28,949 nt of DNA, taken from a virus. The stretch lies in IMG/VR virus record IMGVR_UViG_3300034050_000569, positions 1 to 28,949 of that record, one strand, 5' to 3'. This document shows, piece by piece, positions 4,039 through 28,781 of this stretch. How positions within the stretch are numbered: position 1 is the first letter of the stretch; each line of letters starts with the position of its first letter. The position numbers and the translations under genes are program-made. The notes beneath the pieces are model-generated. The model was not told where the DNA came from. It did no database searches and worked only from the letters and a program-made list of their open reading frames with translations.

Positions 4039-6554
4039 TTATCAAGGAAATTACCGCGCTCGAAGAAGCCGAAGTCGCTGGCACATCACAGGCGCAAATC
4101 TCATGGTTCCCGGACGCGACATCCGTGACGCCCATTCACATCGGATCGCTCCACAAGTTCATCACGCAGTGCAAGTCCGGCACGTATCAAGATCTGGTCA
4201 TCAAGATCCGGCAGTACGCAGCCGCCTCGGACACGGCAAAGATGGGGCTTTTGAAGCGCAAACTGCCAGCCGTCACGCTCTCGTGCAGTATGGTCAGCCG
4301 CTCCAAGAATGCCCCTGTGCGCGCCCGCACCCACAGCGGGTGGTTGCAGTGCGACTTTGACGGCAAAGAGAACCTAGGCCTATTACAGGATGAAATACGG
4401 GCACGCTTGCAGGCTGATCCACATGTGGGTGCTGTGTTTGTGGGGCCAAGCGGCGTTGGTATCAAATGCGCCGTTCGTATCGACGGCAGCCAGCACCTCG
4501 CCAGCTTCGCGACCGCCAAGGAATATTTTAGGGAGGAATACGGCTTGACCATCGACAAAGCCTGCAAGGATGTGGAGCGCCTGTGCTTTGTGAGCTACGA
4601 TCCAGACGCATGGGTCAGGGAAGGCGAGACACAAGTTCTGCAAGTGACAGAGCTGGCGGAAAAGGAAACCATCCGCCCGGTTAAGCCGACACGTGAGATC
4701 ACGCCGTTCGAGGAAGACCAGCACGATATGTCCATCGAGGACGTGCGAGAAATCCTCAGCTACCTGCCAAAGCGCCCTGATTACGATACGTGGCTCCGTA
4801 TCGCCTCCGGCGTGTTCAGTGTGCTGCCACTCGCTGCCGGAGTCATGGTCCTTAATGAGTGGGCACCCGAAGAGAATCCCGGCGAATACGAGCGCAAGCA
4901 CCGAAACAGGCTAAAGAACGTGACGATTCGCACCGTCATCCATTACGCGCAGCAACACGGATTTGACGCTGGTGCCGCATCCAGACGGAAAACATGGCTG
5001 GGCCGCATCATCTTTGGTAAAGAGGATAGTGCCGCAGCACACACTGACCTGCTGGAGAGCGATCAAGAAGCACCAGAACTCAGTGAGAGCGACAAGGAGA
5101 TCATCGGAGAGTCCGACGAGCTGGACATTGAGACGATCGCCAAGTACTACGCGGAAGAACAAGTGGGCGACTCAAAGCTCTTTCGGCTCACATCCAGCAA
5201 GGATTTTTCCTATGACCCACTTTCCCAGATGTGGAGGAAGTACAATGCCGCGACCGGCCTGTGGACGAAGGATGCCATCGGCAGCAGCATCCACAATATG
5301 TCAGCACAGGTCATCGCTGGCTACCACACGCTCATCGCACACGTCGAGGCAGAAGCCAAGGCAGCCAAGAACAAGGAGGTGACCAAGAACAATGCCGCGC
5401 ACGTTCAGCACATCCGGCAACGGTGCGGCAGTTTGCAGAAGCTGCCCTACATGAATAACGTGCTGACGCTTGCCCAGCGGTTTGACGCGATGAGCCGCAA
5501 CGCCACCGAGTACGACAAGCACCGCCACCTGCTGGGATTGGCCAACGGCCTGTGCGTGGACTTTGCCAACAAGATCGTCCGCCCTACAGAACGCAGGGAC
5601 TTGATCAGCGTAGCAAGCCCGGTCGTCTACGATACTAACGCCACCTGCCCAGAGTTCGATTCATTCTTGCACCGCGCGTTTGGAGGCGATCCAGACATGA
5701 TCGACTACTGGTGGCGGATCGTGGGATACAGCATGACCGGCTTCGTCGATCACGATGCGCTCTTCTTCTGTTATGGATTGGGCGCTAACGGCAAGAGCAC
5801 GGGGCTCATGGTGCTGCGGTTCTTGCTTGGTGATCAGTTGAGCACCATGGTGGATGTGAACACGCTGCTCGGCACGAACGGCAGCGACGCCTCACTCGAC
5901 TACAAGAAATCCATGCTGGAGGGCAAACGGTTGGTGATCACTGACGAGCTGCCCGACAACAAGAAAATCAACGAGAGTATGGTCAAGGGCTTACTCGGTG
6001 GCGAGGACATCGTAGCACGTAGGCCATACGAGAAGCCGTACACGTTCAGCCCGACACACAAAATCTGGATGGTGGGCAACCACAAGCCCAAGATCTCAGG
6101 CGTTGATCACGGCATCTGGCGGCGGATTCATTTGATTCCGTGGGAAGTGACCATCCCAGCAAACGAGCGCAAACCGCGCTCGCAGATGTGGGCCACTTTC
6201 AAAGCAGAACTGCCCGGCATCCTCAACCATGCAATTGATGGGTATTTGGACTTTGAAGAACGCGGCGGCCTGTGCCCACCCGCAATGGTCAAGGCAGCCA
6301 CCGAGGAATACCGCCTCGAAGAAGACAGTCTCCAGCAGTTCGTGGCAGAACGCATCGTCGCACACAACGGCGCGCACTTCCCTATGCGCGACCTGTTCAG
6401 CGAGTACAAAGCATGGTGCTCGTCCTCCGGCGAAACATGCGTGGTCGATACCTGCAATAAGTTCACACGAACACTAAAGCAGGCGCCTTATAGCATGGAT
6501 ATTGGTTATGATTCCTACAAGGTCAATGTGCTCCACGGGCACATCCTTCGGTAG
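4035..6554 (+). CDS. Primase-helicase: VirE-N/BT4734-like, PriCT-2 and D5-like SF3 helicase domains
   Basis: 839 aa. Residues about 35-205 resemble the BT4734/VirE N-terminal (primase-like) domain, with an acidic GWLQCDFDG stretch at 102-110 and GVGIKCAVRI at 140-149. About 235-310 resembles PriCT-2 (EDVREILSYLP...YDTWLRIASG). About 480-840 is a D5_N plus superfamily 3 helicase: Walker A GLGANGKST (581-589), Walker B VITDE (634-638) and motif C KIWMVGNHKP (676-685), ending in a winged-helix-like tail. It would prime and unwind phage DNA, acting as the central replication initiator. It overlaps the Pif1 gene by 4 nt. It is the last gene of the rightward early operon, and a large inverted-repeat structure, a candidate origin or terminator, follows immediately. 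Confidence 0.92.
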   Translation: MIIKEITALEEAEVAGTSQAQISWFPDATSVTPIHIGSLHKFITQCKSGTYQDLVIKIRQYAAASDTAKMGLLKRKLPAVTLSCSMVSRSKNAPVRARTHSGWLQCDFDGKENLGLLQDEIRARLQADPHVGAVFVGPSGVGIKCAVRIDGSQHLASFATAKEYFREEYGLTIDKACKDVERLCFVSYDPDAWVREGETQVLQVTELAEKETIRPVKPTREITPFEEDQHDMSIEDVREILSYLPKRPDYDTWLRIASGVFSVLPLAAGVMVLNEWAPEENPGEYERKHRNRLKNVTIRTVIHYAQQHGFDAGAASRRKTWLGRIIFGKEDSAAAHTDLLESDQEAPELSESDKEIIGESDELDIETIAKYYAEEQVGDSKLFRLTSSKDFSYDPLSQMWRKYNAATGLWTKDAIGSSIHNMSAQVIAGYHTLIAHVEAEAKAAKNKEVTKNNAAHVQHIRQRCGSLQKLPYMNNVLTLAQRFDAMSRNATEYDKHRHLLGLANGLCVDFANKIVRPTERRDLISVASPVVYDTNATCPEFDSFLHRAFGGDPDMIDYWWRIVGYSMTGFVDHDALFFCYGLGANGKSTGLMVLRFLLGDQLSTMVDVNTLLGTNGSDASLDYKKSMLEGKRLVITDELPDNKKINESMVKGLLGGEDIVARRPYEKPYTFSPTHKIWMVGNHKPKISGVDHGIWRRIHLIPWEVTIPANERKPRSQMWATFKAELPGILNHAIDGYLDFEERGGLCPPAMVKAATEEYRLEEDSLQQFVAERIVAHNGAHFPMRDLFSEYKAWCSSSGETCVVDTCNKFTRTLKQAPYSMDIGYDSYKVNVLHGHILR

Positions 6555-14389: not shown

Positions 14390-16221
14390 GTTCTATCATT
14401 TACAATGCAGTCAGGGAGATTTTTAGGCCTACTCCCAAACTGGAGGTGCAGGACTGGCTGAAAACGCATGTTCGCTTTGAGCGCGGCCCGATCCTTGGCG
14501 CGTTCGACACGAAGAACTCTCCATGGATCAAGGAACCGTTGACGCAGCTAAAGAACCACGAGACCCGCGAAATCATCTGTGCATGTTCGGTGCAGTCGGC
14601 GAAGACGGCGTTAGCCGAAGGCGCCATGCTCTACCTGATCGCGGAGCAGGGCGGGGACATGTGCTTGTATTTACAGACGGACGAGCACGCTGACGAGTTC
14701 TTGGACACCCGGTTTAAGCACCGTATCCTCGACTGCAAGCCAGTCACCAAGCTGCTGGCTCGTGGGGACAAGAGTATCCAAAAGAGGACGGTCGCATTTG
14801 CCCACATGACGCAATACGTGATGGGTGCGAGCAATATCCACAACCTCCAGTCCAAGGCGGCAAAGTACGTGATTGGTGATGAGGCTGCTTACTGGCCGCA
14901 CGGGCACATTGATGAGTCGCGCAAGAGGACGACATCATTTGATGCGCGGAACAGCAAGCGGATCTACGTGAGCACGCCAATGAACAACTCTGGCGAGTTC
15001 TACGAATCCTTTATCGCTGGCTCATGCAGCGAGTGGAATGTGCGATGCCCGGAGTGTGATGAGCACTGGCCGATGGTACTATCTCAACTCCGGTGGGACG
15101 GCGAAGGTGCAAAGCTCGCAGACGGCAAGTACGACCTAGCGCGCATCCGGAACACTGTTCGATATGAATGCCCGGCTTGCCACGCCATGCTTAGGGACGA
15201 CCCAAGGGTGAGAAGATCGATTGCAAACAGCGGGTTCTACATCAATCAGAACTCGGCGCCAGACCCGCGCGTCAAAAGCTACCACTGGAATGCGCTGACC
15301 GTTCCATGGGTGGCGTGGGACACGATAGCGGGCGAATTTCTAAAGGCTGAATACTCGCGCAAGTTGGGCGATTATTCGCCATTAGCGGAGTTCGTACGCA
15401 AACGACTGGGCGAATTCTGGGATATGCGCGAATTTCAGAGCGAGGAGGTCAATTTATCTGGCTCCTTTGCAATGGAGGAGGAATGGGATCAAGAATTCCG
15501 CCGATACATGACCGTGGACGTGCAGCGAGACTATTTTCGGGTTGTGGTGCGTTTATGGGCACAAAACGGCGATTCTCGTCTGTTTTATGCTGGAGAACTG
15601 CATACTTGGCAGCAATTGATGGATCTACAGAAGAAATTCAACATTAACGCCAGCAGGGTTTTTATTGATTGCGGTTTTGAGCGGTATCAAGGCGAAGTAT
15701 ACAGGCAGTGTGCCGACAATCATTGGTTTGCAGTTAAAGGCGACAAGGCACAGTTTTTTACGTGGACGATTATTGATAAGCGAAGTGGAAAAGCGCAGCA
15801 GGTCAGAAGGCCATACTCGCAAATTCAATACATTGATTCGGGCGTAGGGCTTGCTAGGTCACATGCAAAAGGTGCTAGAAAGGCGGATTTGGCCAAACGC
15901 ATTGTGATGTGTTCTGACCCCATGAAGCAAATCCTGCACCGTTTGCGAGCGGGACAAGGGGCATCGTGGCAGATCGCCCATAATGCGCCAAGGGACTATT
16001 ATAAGGAGATCCAGAACGAGGTGTTTGTTATTGAGAAAGACAAGAAAACCGGCAAAAACAAAAGCTACTTCAAGAAGCTGGGTGAAAACCATTCGTTCGA
16101 CTGCGAAGGTATGCAAGTTCTCGCCGCCTACATTGAAAAACTGCTAGGTACGGCGGATGCAGGTGAAACCCCGTCGCCAAAAGCACAACAAGCAATCGAG
16201 CAGTACCCTGTCAATGCTTGA
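14386..16221 (+). CDS. Terminase large subunit, GpA family
   Basis: 611 aa, near lambda gpA in length. The N-terminal ATPase has the deviant Walker A-like CSVQSAKT (68-75) and Walker B YVIGDEAAYW (161-170). A zinc-binding pair follows, CPEC (221-224) and CPAC (262-265). The C-terminal nuclease region begins near MTVDVQRDYFRVVV and includes VFIDCGFERYQGEVY and FAVKGDKAQF, as in GpA terminases. It is the packaging motor and nuclease that cuts concatemers. The TGA stop at 16219-16221 lies within a TTGACA hexamer that is part of a repeated start-site element. Confidence 0.94.
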   Translation: MSSIIYNAVREIFRPTPKLEVQDWLKTHVRFERGPILGAFDTKNSPWIKEPLTQLKNHETREIICACSVQSAKTALAEGAMLYLIAEQGGDMCLYLQTDEHADEFLDTRFKHRILDCKPVTKLLARGDKSIQKRTVAFAHMTQYVMGASNIHNLQSKAAKYVIGDEAAYWPHGHIDESRKRTTSFDARNSKRIYVSTPMNNSGEFYESFIAGSCSEWNVRCPECDEHWPMVLSQLRWDGEGAKLADGKYDLARIRNTVRYECPACHAMLRDDPRVRRSIANSGFYINQNSAPDPRVKSYHWNALTVPWVAWDTIAGEFLKAEYSRKLGDYSPLAEFVRKRLGEFWDMREFQSEEVNLSGSFAMEEEWDQEFRRYMTVDVQRDYFRVVVRLWAQNGDSRLFYAGELHTWQQLMDLQKKFNINASRVFIDCGFERYQGEVYRQCADNHWFAVKGDKAQFFTWTIIDKRSGKAQQVRRPYSQIQYIDSGVGLARSHAKGARKADLAKRIVMCSDPMKQILHRLRAGQGASWQIAHNAPRDYYKEIQNEVFVIEKDKKTGKNKSYFKKLGENHSFDCEGMQVLAAYIEKLLGTADAGETPSPKAQQAIEQYPVNA

Positions 16222-16240
16222 CAGGGAACCAGATTTTATG
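16218..16240 (+). promoter_or_regulatory. TTGACA-N14-ATG start element, copy 1
   Basis: TTGACA at 16218-16223 lies exactly 20 nt before the ATG at 16238. The 14-nt spacer (GGGAACCAGATTTT) has no Shine-Dalgarno at a usable distance. The element decides the start at 16238 over the upstream ATG at 16214. Confidence 0.65.
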
Positions 16241-18164: not shown

Positions 18165-18187
18165 TTGACACGCGATCTTGCTCTATG
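18165..18187 (+). promoter_or_regulatory. TTGACA-N14-ATG start element, copy 2
   Basis: TTGACA at 18165-18170 is 20 nt before the ATG at 18185. It starts 3 nt after the portal stop. No Shine-Dalgarno lies in the 14-nt spacer, whereas an AAGGAG at 18149-18154 is too far from this ATG. Confidence 0.65.
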
Positions 18188-19081
18188 CAGGTCGCAGACG
18201 AACTCAAAACATTCGCAGCCTTCGAGGGGAAGGTTGCCGGAAACACCATTCAGGGTATTTCGCTGATCCAAGAAGGACCGGCGCTTGGTCATGGAGTGTA
18301 TGTAGATCGTAAGTCGCTTGGTCAGTTTAAGGCGCTGGCCTCAAGCAAAGGGAAGCTGAAGGCCAAGATGAATCACTTCTCCGCGCTTGAGTCAACGGTG
18401 GGGTATTACGAGAATTTCAGGATCTCGAAGGGGAAGCTGCTTGCGGATCTCTCAATCTTTGACAGTTTTTCCGGGCGCGATTCGTTGCTTGAGATGATTG
18501 AGAAAATACCAAGCGAGTTTGGAGTTTCCCTGATGTTTAAGGCTCTTGAGCCGGAGTTAAACAGTGCAGACGGCAAGTTCTACACTCGCGCCAATGACAT
18601 CTATTCAGCCGACTTTGTAGACACTCCCGCCGCCAACCGCGATGGTGTTTTCAGCGTTGCGATTGACAACGACGAGCAAGTTATGGTTGAACCAGAAAAG
18701 CCACAAGCTCCTGAAGCTCCTTCTTTCGTTTCCGAATTTTCGGCATTGTCTGAAAAGATCGAACAACTGTCCGCGCAGATGGCGGCCTACGAAGCCAAGC
18801 TCGCCAGCGAGTGCGAGAAGATTGCTGCCGACATCAAAGCATTTGCTGAGCAGCCAGCGGCTGACCTCGAACTGCAAGCCCGGCTCGCTGCTGCTGCTCC
18901 TGCCCCGGCTGCCTTTTCTGCTCCGGTGAACGAGCAAGAAGCCCCCGCCCCAGTGATCGCTTTTGCTGACGCCAAAAAGTCCGCGCTGGAAGGCAAAGTC
19001 GGACTTGAACGCATCAAAGCGGCTCGTGCTTTTTCTGAGAAGTTCCCATCGGAATCTTCTTACCTTTCTGCTCAATCCTAA
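18185..19081 (+). CDS. Prohead protease fused to scaffold domain
   Basis: 298 aa. Residues 1-160 look like an HK97-type (S78/U35) prohead protease: H64 in KMNHFSALES, S115 in FGVSLMFK, and SADFVDTPAANRDGVF (141-156) parallel to the family's EVS...PAN motif. The catalytic His-Ser spacing is near that of the HK97 enzyme. Residues about 167-298 are a coiled-coil, Ala/Pro-rich region (EFSALSEKIEQLSAQMAAYE), typical of scaffold. The protease cleaves scaffold and head proteins during maturation. A TTG at 18131 would lengthen the protein, but the TTGACA element supports 18185. An internal start at 18683 probably gives the scaffold alone, as for lambda C and Nu3. Confidence 0.82.
   Translation: MQVADELKTFAAFEGKVAGNTIQGISLIQEGPALGHGVYVDRKSLGQFKALASSKGKLKAKMNHFSALESTVGYYENFRISKGKLLADLSIFDSFSGRDSLLEMIEKIPSEFGVSLMFKALEPELNSADGKFYTRANDIYSADFVDTPAANRDGVFSVAIDNDEQVMVEPEKPQAPEAPSFVSEFSALSEKIEQLSAQMAAYEAKLASECEKIAADIKAFAEQPAADLELQARLAAAAPAPAAFSAPVNEQEAPAPVIAFADAKKSALEGKVGLERIKAARAFSEKFPSESSYLSAQS
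18663..18685 (+). promoter_or_regulatory. TTGACA-N14-ATG element, internal copy 3
   Basis: TTGACA at 18663-18668 lies exactly 20 nt before an in-frame ATG at 18683 inside the protease gene. The codons encode IDND; the spacer has no strong Shine-Dalgarno. It marks the protease/scaffold boundary. Confidence 0.6.
18683..19081 (+). CDS. Scaffold protein from internal in-frame start
   Basis: 132 aa, identical to residues 167-298 of the protease protein. It begins MVEPEKPQAPEAP and continues into a coiled coil (FSALSEKIEQLSAQMAAYE), an Ala/Pro-rich region, and a basic C-terminal helix (GLERIKAARAFSEKF) that could bind the major capsid protein. The start is inferred from the TTGACA-N14-ATG element and from the domain boundary. 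In lambda the scaffold Nu3 is likewise made from an in-frame start inside the protease gene C. The arrangement is known in other phages; the proposed signal is not. Confidence 0.6.
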   Translation: MVEPEKPQAPEAPSFVSEFSALSEKIEQLSAQMAAYEAKLASECEKIAADIKAFAEQPAADLELQARLAAAAPAPAAFSAPVNEQEAPAPVIAFADAKKSALEGKVGLERIKAARAFSEKFPSESSYLSAQS

Positions 19082-19096
19082 CCTTTTTTTACTACC

Positions 19097-20020
19097 ATGC
19101 CTCAAGCTAACCTGCTCGACATTGCCAAGCTCAACGGTTCTGACACCATTGTCGGCCTGATTGAGGAGACCCTGACCTACGCTCCCGAGGTTCAGATCAT
19201 GCCAGCCCGCACCATTCGCGGCACCTCGTATAAGATTGCCTCGCGCGTCTCGTATCCGGGCGTCGGCTTCCGTGCGGCCAACGAAGGCTCTGCCCCAACC
19301 AAGTCGGAGTTCGAGAACCAACTCATCGAGTGCTACATCCTCAGTGGTGCAGTGCAGGCTGACGTTGCAGTCGCTCGCGCCTACGAAGACGGTGAGCAAG
19401 CGTGGAAGGACATCGAATCCATCGGTGTCATGCGCCAAGCGATGATCGAGCTGGGTTCACAGGTCATCTACGGCACCTCGGTTGATGCTAAAGGCTTCCC
19501 CGGATTGCAGGCGATTCATACCGCTTTCAACTCTGGCCTTGTGGTTGGCGGTGGCGGCAGTGCTGATCTGTCCTCGGTCTACGGCATTAACACGGACACG
19601 CAAGGGGTGCAGCTCGTGTTCGGTTCCGGCACCACGTTCGAGCTTGGTGAATGGCGTATCGAAAACGTCGGCACCACCACGGTCTACCCTGCTCACGTTG
19701 CTAACCTTACCGCTTGGGTGGGTATGCAAGTCGGAAGCAAATACAGCGTGGGTCGCTTGAATAGCGTTGGCTCAAACTCCGGCGGTGGTGTCACCGACGG
19801 AAAACTGGCTGAGCTGCTCAGCAAATACCCAGTTGGCTACCGGCCTAATTACTGGCTGATGAACCGCCGCAGTGCCTACCAACTGCAAGTCAGCCGGTCC
19901 GCCACCAGCGTGCAAAACGGTGTTAAAACCTCAAGCGGATCAGAGATCTTTGCTCCTCTGCCAACTGAGTCTAACGGCATCCCAATCGTCATCACCGACT
20001 CGATCATCAACGCTGAGTAA
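19097..20020 (+). CDS. Major capsid protein
   Basis: 307 aa. It has the pattern of Bordetella-phage-type major capsid proteins with an HK97 fold: APEVQIMPARTIRGTSYKI near the N-terminus, YPGVGFRAANEGSAPTKSEF, and a C-terminal NGIPIVITDSI. These are typical of the family once the N-arm and E-loop have passed. It lies directly after scaffold/protease and before a small decoration-like protein. The upstream gap has TTACTACC immediately before the ATG, similar to the next gene's leader; no Shine-Dalgarno is seen. Confidence 0.85.
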   Translation: MPQANLLDIAKLNGSDTIVGLIEETLTYAPEVQIMPARTIRGTSYKIASRVSYPGVGFRAANEGSAPTKSEFENQLIECYILSGAVQADVAVARAYEDGEQAWKDIESIGVMRQAMIELGSQVIYGTSVDAKGFPGLQAIHTAFNSGLVVGGGGSADLSSVYGINTDTQGVQLVFGSGTTFELGEWRIENVGTTTVYPAHVANLTAWVGMQVGSKYSVGRLNSVGSNSGGGVTDGKLAELLSKYPVGYRPNYWLMNRRSAYQLQVSRSATSVQNGVKTSSGSEIFAPLPTESNGIPIVITDSIINAE

Positions 20021-20051: not shown

Positions 20052-20459
20052 ATGGCTAACGAATTTACTAGAAACATTCAGGACGCGGCTCTAACCGAGA
20101 CGGCCACCATCCCGGCCACTGCAACTGATGCATTCACTGCCGACATCAACCTCGGTACCAACAGCAAAGCTTTTCTCACGGAAGAGCAAGAGCTGGAAAT
20201 CGCCTTCCCAGCCTTTACGGTGGGTCAGCTCGCCAACGGTGCAGCCGTCACGGCGGTTGTGCTTAACGGTTCCGCCGCTTCTCCTACCGGCACTGCTCTC
20301 GGCATCACACGTGTTGTGACCGGCGCTGGTGGCGCTGGTGCCCCCGCGACCAGCTTTCGTGTTCGCCTCCCGGCTGCGACCCTTCAGTTCCTGCGTGTCA
20401 AGTTTACCACTTCGGCTGCTAACGCTGGAGGCACTGCCACTGTCAGACTGCTGACCTAA
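20052..20459 (+). CDS. Head decoration/cement-like protein
   Basis: 135 aa, Ala/Thr/Gly-rich and beta-like (TATIPATATDAFTADI, FRVRLPAATLQFLRVKFTTS), with no charged enzyme motif. Small beta-rich proteins directly after the major capsid gene are usually capsid cement or decoration proteins; the assignment rests on position and composition. The leader TTACTACA-ATG resembles that of the capsid gene, so the two may share a high-expression signal. A strong terminator 31 nt downstream closes the capsid block. Confidence 0.65.
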   Translation: MANEFTRNIQDAALTETATIPATATDAFTADINLGTNSKAFLTEEQELEIAFPAFTVGQLANGAAVTAVVLNGSAASPTGTALGITRVVTGAGGAGAPATSFRVRLPAATLQFLRVKFTTSAANAGGTATVRLLT

Positions 20460-20490
20460 TTTTCGGTGCTGGGGGTTGTCGTCATCGGGG

Positions 20491-20528
20491 CGGCTGACAA
20501 GGTTGTATCCTTGTCAGCCGCTTTTTTG
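20491..20528 (+). terminator. Rho-independent terminator after the capsid genes
   Basis: CGGCTGACAAGG, loop TTGTAT, CCTTGTCAGCCG is a perfect 12-bp stem (20491-20520), followed by CTTTTTT. It ends 2 nt before the ATG at 20530. It would cap capsid mRNA and lower expression of the joining and tail genes, which need fewer copies. Confidence 0.85.
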
Positions 20529-20529
20529 T

Positions 20530-20889
20530 ATGCTTTACGCTCAACGTCTCGCCGCCGCGCATGGTCGCATCCGCAACAAGTTTGGTGCGGTGACGCAGAC
20601 CGAGAACCTGTTTGTCTGGCACAAGGGGGCGCAAATCCCGTGCTACCAGTCCACCGGGCGGACTCAGCGCAACCTAATGACGGCAATGATCGTTAATGAG
20701 GCTGCAATTACCGTCTGTGCCACCAAGGTGAACTTTACCAGCGTGCCAGTGGTTGGTGACGAGGTGAAGTATGGAACGAGCTTAGAGGGCGCCCAGACGC
20801 TTCGCATTGATACGGTCAACACGACCGCGATCCGTCCGTTCTATGAGCTGGATCTGATCGACCCAAACAAAGAGGAGACGGCAGCATGA
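20530..20889 (+). CDS. Head-tail joining protein (inferred from order)
   Basis: 119 aa from the ATG at 20530. It contains LFVWHKGAQIPCYQSTGRT, an FTSVPVVGDEVKYGT loop and a beta-rich C-terminus (RIDTVNTTAIRPFYELDLI), with the look of a small connector or FII-like attachment protein. The assignment rests mainly on its place between the capsid block and a gp10/Z-like protein. It starts right after the terminator stem, so the T tract overlaps its leader. It overlaps the next gene as ATGA. Upstream in-frame codons from 20476 run through the terminator and are rejected. Confidence 0.65.
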   Translation: MLYAQRLAAAHGRIRNKFGAVTQTENLFVWHKGAQIPCYQSTGRTQRNLMTAMIVNEAAITVCATKVNFTSVPVVGDEVKYGTSLEGAQTLRIDTVNTTAIRPFYELDLIDPNKEETAA

Positions 20890-22011: not shown

Positions 22012-22034
22012 TTGACACACGCGGCAGTATTATG
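22012..22034 (+). promoter_or_regulatory. TTGACA-N14-ATG start element, copy 4
   Basis: TTGACA at 22012-22017 is 20 nt before the ATG at 22032, and 2 nt after the previous stop. The surroundings match copy 2 (GATTGACAC), and there is no Shine-Dalgarno in the spacer. Confidence 0.65.
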
Positions 22035-22442: not shown

Positions 22443-22843
22443 CGCATTCTTGGATTCCGTGTACTGATCTTGATTTAGCCGCCGCATTTGGGACACTGGG
22501 GGTCCCCATGCGGCCAGAGGTGCAAGTAAGGGCGGATAGTGGTAAAGAGTATGTGACGGTGTTCTTGTCTACTGAGAGCGCCACCAATCCCGAGATCAAG
22601 ACGGGAGCATTGATGAAGCTACTCAAGAGCGGAGATCTGGAAAAGCAGGACCCAGAGCATCCATTGCTTTATGCAATCACCGCGATTAAAAACCGTCATG
22701 CGGTAACGCGGTCAATAAAAGAAACGCAGCGGATGATTTTGATTAGCATTAAAGGCAGCAAGAGAACAGCGTTTGTTCGTGAAAATATAACAGGAGAAGG
22801 ACTTGCTATAGCGGAAAGATTTCTGCATACTGGAAGGCCATGA
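22439..22843 (+). CDS. Hypothetical tail-region protein
   Basis: 134 aa, coupled to the tube gene and to the chaperone gene by ATGA overlaps. It begins SWIPCTDLDLAAAFGTLGV, has a basic middle (AITAIKNRHAVTRSIKETQ) and ends GEGLAIAERFLHTG. In lambda no gene lies between V and G, so this is an extra member of the tail-assembly block. No family is recognised; a minor tail or assembly factor is the simplest guess. Confidence 0.6.
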   Translation: MTHSWIPCTDLDLAAAFGTLGVPMRPEVQVRADSGKEYVTVFLSTESATNPEIKTGALMKLLKSGDLEKQDPEHPLLYAITAIKNRHAVTRSIKETQRMILISIKGSKRTAFVRENITGEGLAIAERFLHTGRP

Positions 22844-23292
22844 GCCAACTTGAAGAGAAAGAAATTTCAATCCTAGACCTACCCACTGAAGACCTTGCTG
22901 CTGCCCGCAGGGAGGCGGCCTTTAGCAATTCATACATTTGGGAAGGGAAGCCGTTTGAAGGGCTGACTTCTGCGCGAAAAGATTTGTGGTCATCCTTGTG
23001 CCACAAAGCGGGCTTCCCTCCATTAAGCCAGTGTTTTGACGAGATCTCTTTGTTCGCACCATTGGCAAAAGCGATGTTGTTTGTCCTGATCACGCCGAAG
23101 TCAAAGCTGAAGCTTTTGCGGGCACAGGGTATGGACAAGATGCTGGATGCGTTCGACGACTGGTGCGACGTAGCCGTGCCCATCCATTTGGAACCAGACG
23201 TGATCTCCTTGGGGATCAAGCTCCTTAACGACTCAACGGCCAGCCAGACAGAAGTAGTGCCGTCAGAGGGCAGTTCTGTGGGAAAGCCCTAG
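22840..23292 (+). CDS. Tail assembly chaperone G
   Basis: 150 aa. It is acidic at the N-terminus (LEEKEISILDLPTEDLAAAR) with a hydrophobic core (LFAPLAKAMLFVLIT) and an acidic tail (EVVPSEGSSVGKP). It lies directly before the tape measure, as lambda gpG does, and its gene ends in a GGGAAAG slip site followed within two codons by the TAG stop at 23290. The tail part past the slip gives the GT fusion. Chaperones of this type keep the tape measure extended during tail assembly. Confidence 0.82.
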   Translation: MSQLEEKEISILDLPTEDLAAARREAAFSNSYIWEGKPFEGLTSARKDLWSSLCHKAGFPPLSQCFDEISLFAPLAKAMLFVLITPKSKLKLLRAQGMDKMLDAFDDWCDVAVPIHLEPDVISLGIKLLNDSTASQTEVVPSEGSSVGKP

Positions 23293-23525
23293 CATACCCG
23301 GTCTGGTCTGCATTCTACGTTGCAGCCGTGCACCAGATGACCGGGATGAGTGAAGATGAGATCCTGTGGGATCTCCCACTCGCGCGCGGGCTCGCGTACA
23401 TGCACGTGTCGTTCGTTTTGCAGGGGACGCAAACGCAATGGCCTCGCGATCAATCCTCTAGTGATGAGATGACCAATGTGAAAAAGATGCTCCAAGAGAA
23501 GCCTTGGCGTAAGCTTGACATCTGA
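22840..23525 (+). CDS. Frameshifted tail assembly chaperone GT
   Basis: 228 aa in total. A -1 slip on GGGAAAG (23280-23286) links residue K149 of G to A-L-A-Y-P in the downstream frame, which stays open to 23525 and includes WSAFYVAAVHQMTGMSEDE and LARGLAYMHVSFVLQG, clearly protein-like. The T part has no start codon of its own before 23328. The heptamer is the same as lambda's G-T slip site. In lambda-type tails both G and GT are needed, with GT made in small amounts. The fusion is read directly from frames; its rate is not. Confidence 0.83.
23280..23286 (+). other. GGGAAAG slippery heptamer for -1 frameshift
   Basis: In the G frame the codons are GTG GGA AAG CCC TAG. A shift to -1 re-pairs the tRNAs on GGG and AAA and continues GCC CTA GCA in the open T frame. 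It is identical to the lambda G-T heptamer. Confidence 0.85.
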
Positions 23526-27891: not shown

Positions 27892-28762
27892 ACTGCCAGA
27901 CTTTCAGAACAACTTGAAGTACTTCCTAAAAGGGAAGACGCTCAACCTTTTCAGGGAAGTGCTTGATCGGCAGATCCCATTAAAAGGAAAAGGCGTGGAA
28001 TTGAATGAAACCGAGGAAGGCATCATGATCATCGCGCCACCTAGCGATGCCTTGGCGACAGTTGGCGCGTTGGATTTTTCTGGTGTTTACAGCGGAGGCA
28101 ATGTAACCGTGCGAGGAGGTAAGGTGATGGGGACGTTGTGGTCCAGCTACAATGCAAATGATCCGGCAAGTGGCGGATGGACGGAAGGAGTGGCAGTTGC
28201 AGGTGGAACGTTTGCTGTTGGGGCAGGGGCATCTGTCTGGCTCAATATCACTATATCTGCAACGACGGCAGACAACATTGGTGATCTGTCGGCATTCGGG
28301 CAATCGACTATTACGGTGACTGGCGGCACCGGAGGCGGGGGTGGTGGGGGCGGTGGTGGTGGAGCAGGAGCCGGAGGAACCGGAACGAGTGGGGCGGGAG
28401 GCAATGGTGTTGCAGGCACTGCTGGAACTATTGGCTCTCCCGGTTCTGGCGGATCGGGTGGCACGGCTGGGTATGTTCCATTCCTTGCTGGCGGAGGTGC
28501 TGGCTCTGGGGGTGGCAGCGGCAACTACGGGGCAGAAGGTAATTACGGTCAGTCGGTCAGCTTTTACGACTACGCCAAAGCAACGGTCAAGGTCCGGCGT
28601 TATTCTATCACAAGCGCAGTTTTGCAGACCACGCAGCCAACCGCTTCACCCACGACGGCGGGGTTACGGATCTTAACGTGGGACGGATCGACTGTGATTC
28701 ATCATCAAGTCGGATCGGTATTCTTAACCTTGCCCGTTATCGTGTACGCTCCGCCTGATTGA
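27881..28762 (+). CDS. Glycine-rich tail tip/adhesin-like protein C
   Basis: 293 aa from TTG at 27881, overlapping gene B's stop. The TTG is supported because it yields MFPKL, matching MLPQL and MLPAL in the paralogues. The order is the same: VLDRQIPLKGKG, VRGGKVMGTLWSSYNANDPA then GGW, SVWLNITI (118-125), a Gly-rich region with a run of eleven Gly (about 148-222), and VKVRRYSITSAVLQTT. It is the third copy of the family and probably part of the same tip or fibre complex. Its TGA stop lies inside a TTGACA hexamer. Confidence 0.66.
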   Translation: MFPKLPDFQNNLKYFLKGKTLNLFREVLDRQIPLKGKGVELNETEEGIMIIAPPSDALATVGALDFSGVYSGGNVTVRGGKVMGTLWSSYNANDPASGGWTEGVAVAGGTFAVGAGASVWLNITISATTADNIGDLSAFGQSTITVTGGTGGGGGGGGGGGAGAGGTGTSGAGGNGVAGTAGTIGSPGSGGSGGTAGYVPFLAGGGAGSGGGSGNYGAEGNYGQSVSFYDYAKATVKVRRYSITSAVLQTTQPTASPTTAGLRILTWDGSTVIHHQVGSVFLTLPVIVYAPPD

Positions 28763-28781
28763 CATCCCGCCGCATTTTATG
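28759..28781 (+). promoter_or_regulatory. TTGACA-N14-ATG start element, copy 6
   Basis: TTGACA at 28759-28764, containing the TGA stop of the third paralogue, is 20 nt before the ATG at 28779. The spacer TCCCGCCGCATTTT has no Shine-Dalgarno. Confidence 0.65.

Follow-up and report, generated by a model that had tools for sequence, protein, structure and literature searches.

An open reading frame at 18185–19081 of a viral DNA very probably encodes two proteins in one frame: a 298-aa protease-scaffold protein and a free 132-aa scaffold translated from the internal ATG 18683. The DNA analyzed, hereafter the window, is the whole 28,949-nt stretch of IMG/VR record IMGVR_UViG_3300034050_000569. The case for an independently started scaffold is built on the conservation of the start signal and ATG, the codon constraint at the site, the exchange of the two halves between lineages and the presence of a separate gene at the corresponding place in a relative. 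As a whole, the observations are likely to be best explained by a two-protein gene whose internal start is marked by the hexamer TTGACA acting at the RNA level. The original prediction, that TTGACA stands 20 nt before an in-frame ATG at residue 167 and leaves a 132-aa remainder, was confirmed; the ATG occupies 18683–18685, and its first letter comes 20 nt after the first letter of the hexamer, so that 14 nt lie between the two. The coordinates of the features are collected in Table 1.

Table 1 Features of the window discussed in the text, with the evidence for each (offsets run from hexamer start to ATG start)
Feature	Position	Strand	Evidence or remarks
TTGACA before ATG 16238	16218..16223	+	33/33 distinct contexts: 32 at +20, 1 at +19
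TTGACA before full-length ORF start, ATG 18185	18165..18170	+	31/31 distinct contexts: 30 at +20, 1 at +21
Full-length ORF, 298 aa	18185..19081	+	Putative head-maturation protease fused to scaffold; homologues and synteny
Putative protease half, residues 1–160	18185..18664	+	Invariant columns; secondary structure in a low-confidence model
TTGACA before internal ATG 18683	18663..18668	+	42/42 distinct homologous sequences
Internal cistron, candidate scaffold, 132 aa, predicted helical	18683..19081	+	Invariant ATG, module exchange, helix 182–221
Major capsid protein gene, presumed client of the scaffold	19097..20020	+	Starts without the hexamer
TTGACA before ATG 22032 (136-aa gene, probably tail)	22012..22017	+	18/18 distinct contexts
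TTGACA before ATG 23535 (tape measure protein)	23515..23520	+	18/18 distinct contexts: 15 at +20, 3 at +21; one spurious pattern match left out (L135, an unrelated sequence without the signal)
TTGACA before ATG 28779 (gene truncated at the end of the window)	28759..28764	+	3/3 distinct contexts

The ORF lies between the portal gene and the major capsid gene. A lambda-type terminase (PF05876/PF20454) and the portal (PF05136) are encoded upstream, and downstream the capsid protein, of the GP7/phrog_212 type (PF20911), is followed by a tape measure protein. At a threshold of 0.001, the ORF itself had no match in Pfam or PHROG. Its gene order, the family matches of its neighbors and a long helix at residues 182–221 of a low-confidence model agree with the single-ORF arrangement of nested protease/scaffold genes, the C-terminal part being the presumed scaffold.

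The protease label of the N-terminal half is putative and is based on synteny and a motif. Residues H36, N63-H64, S115, D143 and D146 are invariant in this half (columns of 5 and 20 sequences), and H64 and S115, unchanged in the 20 sequences, are the catalytic candidates; the pattern NH...GVS...PAAN is one that we take to resemble HK97-type (S78) proteases. The half gave no match to Pfam and none to the NCBIfam prohead proteases, a PHROG 976 match (E 0.0036) covered only residues 172–233, outside the protease half, and tblastn of the protease against isolates returned no match. Two structure models were weak (pLDDT 46 and 42); several prohead proteases were among the top viral Foldseek matches, none of them significant, the PDB matches were unrelated, and a PDB sequence search returned nothing relevant. 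In the model of the 298-aa protein with a mean pLDDT of 46, strands and helices extend to residue 160, no regular structure is seen at 161–181 and the long helix follows; at this low confidence, the unstructured linker contains M167.

The hexamer by itself is uninformative in the window (15 copies found, 16.7 expected), and it is its position that carries meaning. An ATG was found at exactly +20 after six of the nine plus-strand copies (those in Table 1) and after none of the six minus-strand copies. For a single fixed offset, at least six of nine has a probability of 2e-9; multiplication by the 54 offsets gives 1e-7, and the TTGACA-ATG spacing in the window is thus beyond chance. All six of these ATGs are gene starts or the start of the internal frame of the ORF. 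The first belongs to a gene of 91 aa that lies between terminase and portal and is gpW-like only in its position, and the hexamer before it includes the terminase stop codon TGA.

The same spacing recurs in related phages. In 27 non-redundant related IMG/VR loci, chosen from 103 by leaving out redundant loci and the window itself (L001), 99 of 135 plus-strand copies had an ATG at +20, the next most frequent offset having 17, and none of 59 minus-strand copies did; these loci share kinship, so that the 99 matches are not independent events and only about seven different genes count as independent units. It is the sharing of one spaced hexamer by these genes, together with the codon constraint at the internal site, that carries the weight of the argument. 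The pattern TTGACA-N12-16-ATG was present in 4–8 copies on the late strand of 22 of 23 related records, nearly always at the same late genes, and 0–2 times when read backwards. The exception was G007 (L100), with two copies at another spacing. Even the distant L109, whose terminase is 58% and whose protease-scaffold protein is 49% identical, keeps the signal at both the protease start and the internal start. The spacing is not perfectly fixed, as 19, 21, 22 and perhaps 25 also occur; the offset of 22 is that of a further signal gene in full-length records (L180:18394). Two more TTGACA copies with an ATG at +25 were seen in L182/L183 (G010) at 18427 and 23683, and one of these sites is found again, as TTGACA...GCAATTAAGCCATG, in several related records. 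In L109, the phosphoesterase-like gene that has been inserted after the terminase gene (4162–5003) brings its own TTGACA-N14-ATG.

We looked for Shine-Dalgarno pairing at these starts. At 18683, the best duplex energy was −2.2, compared with a random mean of −2.3, and no GGAGG-like run was present. Mean energies were −1.3 for genes with the signal, −0.8 for the other genes and −2.3 for random positions, and 16238 was the only signal start with moderately strong pairing (−5.1). The starts of this phage are therefore poor in Shine-Dalgarno sequences, with pairing weaker than at random positions.

The distribution of the signal followed the coupling of genes. When starts that overlap or touch the upstream stop codon were counted as coupled, a partition chosen after inspection of the data and with 20530 assigned by hand to the uncoupled and 4850 to the coupled class, the signal was present in 6/9 uncoupled versus 0/9 coupled starts in the late region of the window (Fisher P = 0.009), and in 6/8 versus 1/11 in L180 (P = 0.006), where the one coupled signal gene is 18394, with the overlap TAATG. 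The uncoupled starts without the hexamer in the window are those of the capsid gene at 19097, of its neighbor at 20052 and the ATG 20530 behind a hairpin; the capsid gene and its neighbor use other leaders. The capsid leader at 19072–19099 is conserved in homologues and consists of TAAC, a T-rich run and a short A-containing stretch ending in ACCATG. The hairpin at 20487–20524, terminator-like and strong (16 pairs and a T tail), lies within the late operon just before the probable start at 20530.

Because the signal is split in this way between coupled and uncoupled starts in both the window and L180, the data suggest a role for TTGACA in loading ribosomes at starts to which coupling is not available, the internal scaffold start among them. 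We thus lean towards reading the hexamer as a Shine-Dalgarno-independent translation-start element for uncoupled late genes. In the mechanism we propose, the ORF would be translated whole into the 298-aa protein, UUGACA about 14 nt upstream of the AUG would act in the RNA to select the start at 18683, and ribosomes initiating there would produce the free scaffold, originally predicted to be made in excess of the protease. A set of late genes in this phage lineage would share the signal where both Shine-Dalgarno pairing and stop-codon coupling are missing. The hexamer may be bound by a phage protein or by the ribosome, in the 30S/S1 region ahead of the start codon; a gene for bS21, one candidate reader, was found in 0 of 10 related records.

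A different role for the same set of sites, that of an operator at which a phage regulator, binding RNA or DNA, would switch late genes, is unlikely, although the restriction of the hexamer to about seven late genes per record would suit an operator. A perfect 9-bp inverted repeat surrounds the signal before 16238 at 16206–16226 (CCCTGTCAA-TGC-TTGACAGGG, loop TGC), and shorter inverted repeats of a similar kind were seen at the equivalent gene in L109 (TGTCAACTAATTGACA) and L180. However, an RNA hairpin around the hexamer was clear only at the 16218 site and no consistent hairpin or repeat was found at the others, no candidate regulator was identified, and an operator leaves the mainly uncoupled distribution of the signal unexplained.

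TTGACA is also the textbook −35 consensus, and one may ask whether it belongs to a sigma-70 promoter for a separate scaffold transcript, and likewise at the other late genes. Geometry makes this improbable. With a spacer of 16–18 nt from an ordinary −35 box at 18663, the −10 element would fall within codons 2–4 and the transcript would begin about 15 nt downstream of the ATG. A promoter scan at 18663 found neither a promoter-like site nor a −10 partner, no second conserved box emerged from position frequencies across 81 distinct sites, and promoters do not require a fixed distance to an ATG. The internal start of the first interpretation stood, conserved and placed where the two halves meet. 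The reading of the hexamer as an ordinary −35 box was given up on account of this geometry and the empty scan.

More distant marine relatives, akin to Verrucomicrobia phage P8625, do carry arrangements that resemble promoters. In P8625 itself (L104, at 5412, 10736 and 15558) and in L110–L137, TTGACA lies 34–42 nt upstream of the ATG and is often followed 17 nt further on by a box resembling TTTAAA or TATAAA; such near-leaderless promoters stand before genes comparable to 16238 and 22032. Because these relatives pair TTGACA with −10-like boxes at comparable genes, the hexamer may derive from promoters, although its present geometry in the window speaks against that role. The true start of P8625 gp07 may be 33 nt upstream of the annotated one.

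For the internal site, conservation in homologues had been proposed as a check. Of the 141 loci that contain the motif, three were too short (L021, L056 and L169) and the rest collapsed to 42 distinct sequences; all 42 keep the hexamer and its ATG at +20, so that the refuting outcome named beforehand, homologues lacking both, did not arise. The internal ATG was invariant in all 43 distinct CDSs, M167 remaining unchanged while neighboring residues vary. Among the 81 invariant amino-acid columns with degenerate codons, only three used a single codon in all 43 CDSs, F118, I160 (ATT) and D161 (GAC), and the latter two spell the ATTGAC of the signal. The next base was always A, although the encoded residue is N, S, K or T. 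Judging from this codon usage, the internal site is selected at the nucleotide level.

I160, D161 and M167 are also invariant as amino acids, and maturation proteases often cleave the scaffold near the protease/scaffold border, so that the three residues could form a protein feature such as an autocleavage site, with the TTGACA-N14-ATG match as a by-product. We regard this as very unlikely, because the protein does not require the single codons ATT and GAC or the invariant A in the variable codon that follows, and the window has the same spaced signal in front of five other genes, without its being translated there as I-D.

The part of the gene behind the internal ATG behaves as a module. The DNAs of L013 and L042 are 90% identical before this ATG and 48% identical after it (over 60 alignment columns), whereas the window and L007 are 66% identical before and 92% after. 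Because the two pairs show opposite patterns, scaffold versions have been exchanged between lineages at the internal ATG in both directions. This exchange could suggest that the signal is a recombination linker at module borders with no role in expression, but this is hardly credible, as a linker needs neither an exact distance to a start codon nor a conserved ATG, no hexamer is found at the coupled gene borders of the window, and exchange is expected anyway at a site that opens an independent cistron. The conservation, the codon constraint and the exchange together favor the placement of an internal start at the boundary of two halves, as originally proposed, and this boundary fits the low-confidence model.

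L100, the exception mentioned above, offers another view of the same arrangement. Its capsid protein is 66% identical to that of the window, and in place of an internal signal it has a protease gene with a match to phrog_53 (head maturation protease), a separate 133-aa gene and then the capsid gene. The 133-aa product is coiled-coil-like as judged by eye, and homology with the window scaffold was not demonstrable (best BLASTP E 1.4, and 0.032 for the L083 version). Because of this lack of demonstrable homology, the free-standing gene backs a separate scaffold by analogy.

In lambda, the Nu3 start is nested within gene C. The ORF resembles C/Nu3 in its position between portal and capsid genes, in its single frame and in having the presumed scaffold as the C-terminal part. 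It differs in that no match to a ClpP/S49-type protease was found, that the start is marked by TTGACA at a distance of 14 nt and not by a Shine-Dalgarno sequence, and that the scaffold is swapped as a module among relatives. The B-C-Nu3 complex of lambda is described in PMC3224144, and the nested protease/scaffold is treated as a single gene in lambda and P2 in PMC8508860. For Mu and the Pseudomonas Mu-like phage PaMx73, PMC4378225 reports an in-frame internal scaffold start inside the protease gene, with a Shine-Dalgarno sequence 8–9 nt upstream; codon 177, given there for PaMx73, is close to 167 here. The difference from Mu and PaMx73 is that the start of the present ORF lacks a Shine-Dalgarno sequence and carries instead a hexamer common to other genes. 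By analogy, the nested scheme would be the same as in lambda C/Nu3 and Mu, and it is the start signal that is unusual.

Two other kinds of upstream element, the closest among the known non-Shine-Dalgarno elements that were found, invite comparison. ACA motifs upstream of Salmonella yifK and dppA raise initiation, without a strict position and as studied upstream of a Shine-Dalgarno sequence (PMC3879156). Like the present signal these are upstream RNA elements containing ACA, but they differ from a full hexamer at a near-fixed distance and without a Shine-Dalgarno sequence. Flavobacterium likewise initiates without Shine-Dalgarno sequences, and PMC6847099 describes Kozak-like starts tuned by upstream bases, with the region near −13 close to S1. 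Single A preferences at −3, −6, −12 and −13 are found there, in contrast to a conserved hexamer at −20 to −15 here, which would sit near or just upstream of the mRNA stretch passing ribosomal protein S1. A search of the open-access literature found no description of this spaced hexamer as a start signal.

Among isolates, the portal is best matched in Verrucomicrobia phage P8625 (25.8% identity), which only hints at the host phylum, and a scan of genome contigs returned only four distant terminase relatives. Some Verrucomicrobia are counted as Shine-Dalgarno-scarce in PMC10783764. Tentatively, and with somewhat less confidence than in the role at uncoupled late genes, we propose that UUGACA about 14 nt upstream of AUG could be a previously undescribed Shine-Dalgarno-independent initiation element with which a lineage of phages with Shine-Dalgarno-poor hosts opens uncoupled late genes, the nested scaffold among them. 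Either the ribosome or a dedicated protein would then recognize the exact hexamer.

How start codons are chosen in bacteria and phages without Shine-Dalgarno sequences is an open question, on which a compact hexamer at a nearly exact spacing bears. The copy at the internal site lies within coding sequence and can be tested by synonymous mutation. The ORF would add to the protease-scaffold scheme of lambda and Mu a case with a different internal start signal, and the signal would let annotators detect hidden cistrons in related phages.

A further arrangement was noticed in the gene before the tape measure gene. Lambda G/GT frameshifting uses a slippery heptamer; near the end of ORF 22840–23292, GGGAAAG at 23280–23286 stands in slippery register and the −1 frame behind it stays open to 23525, which resembles a lambda G/GT-like frameshift.
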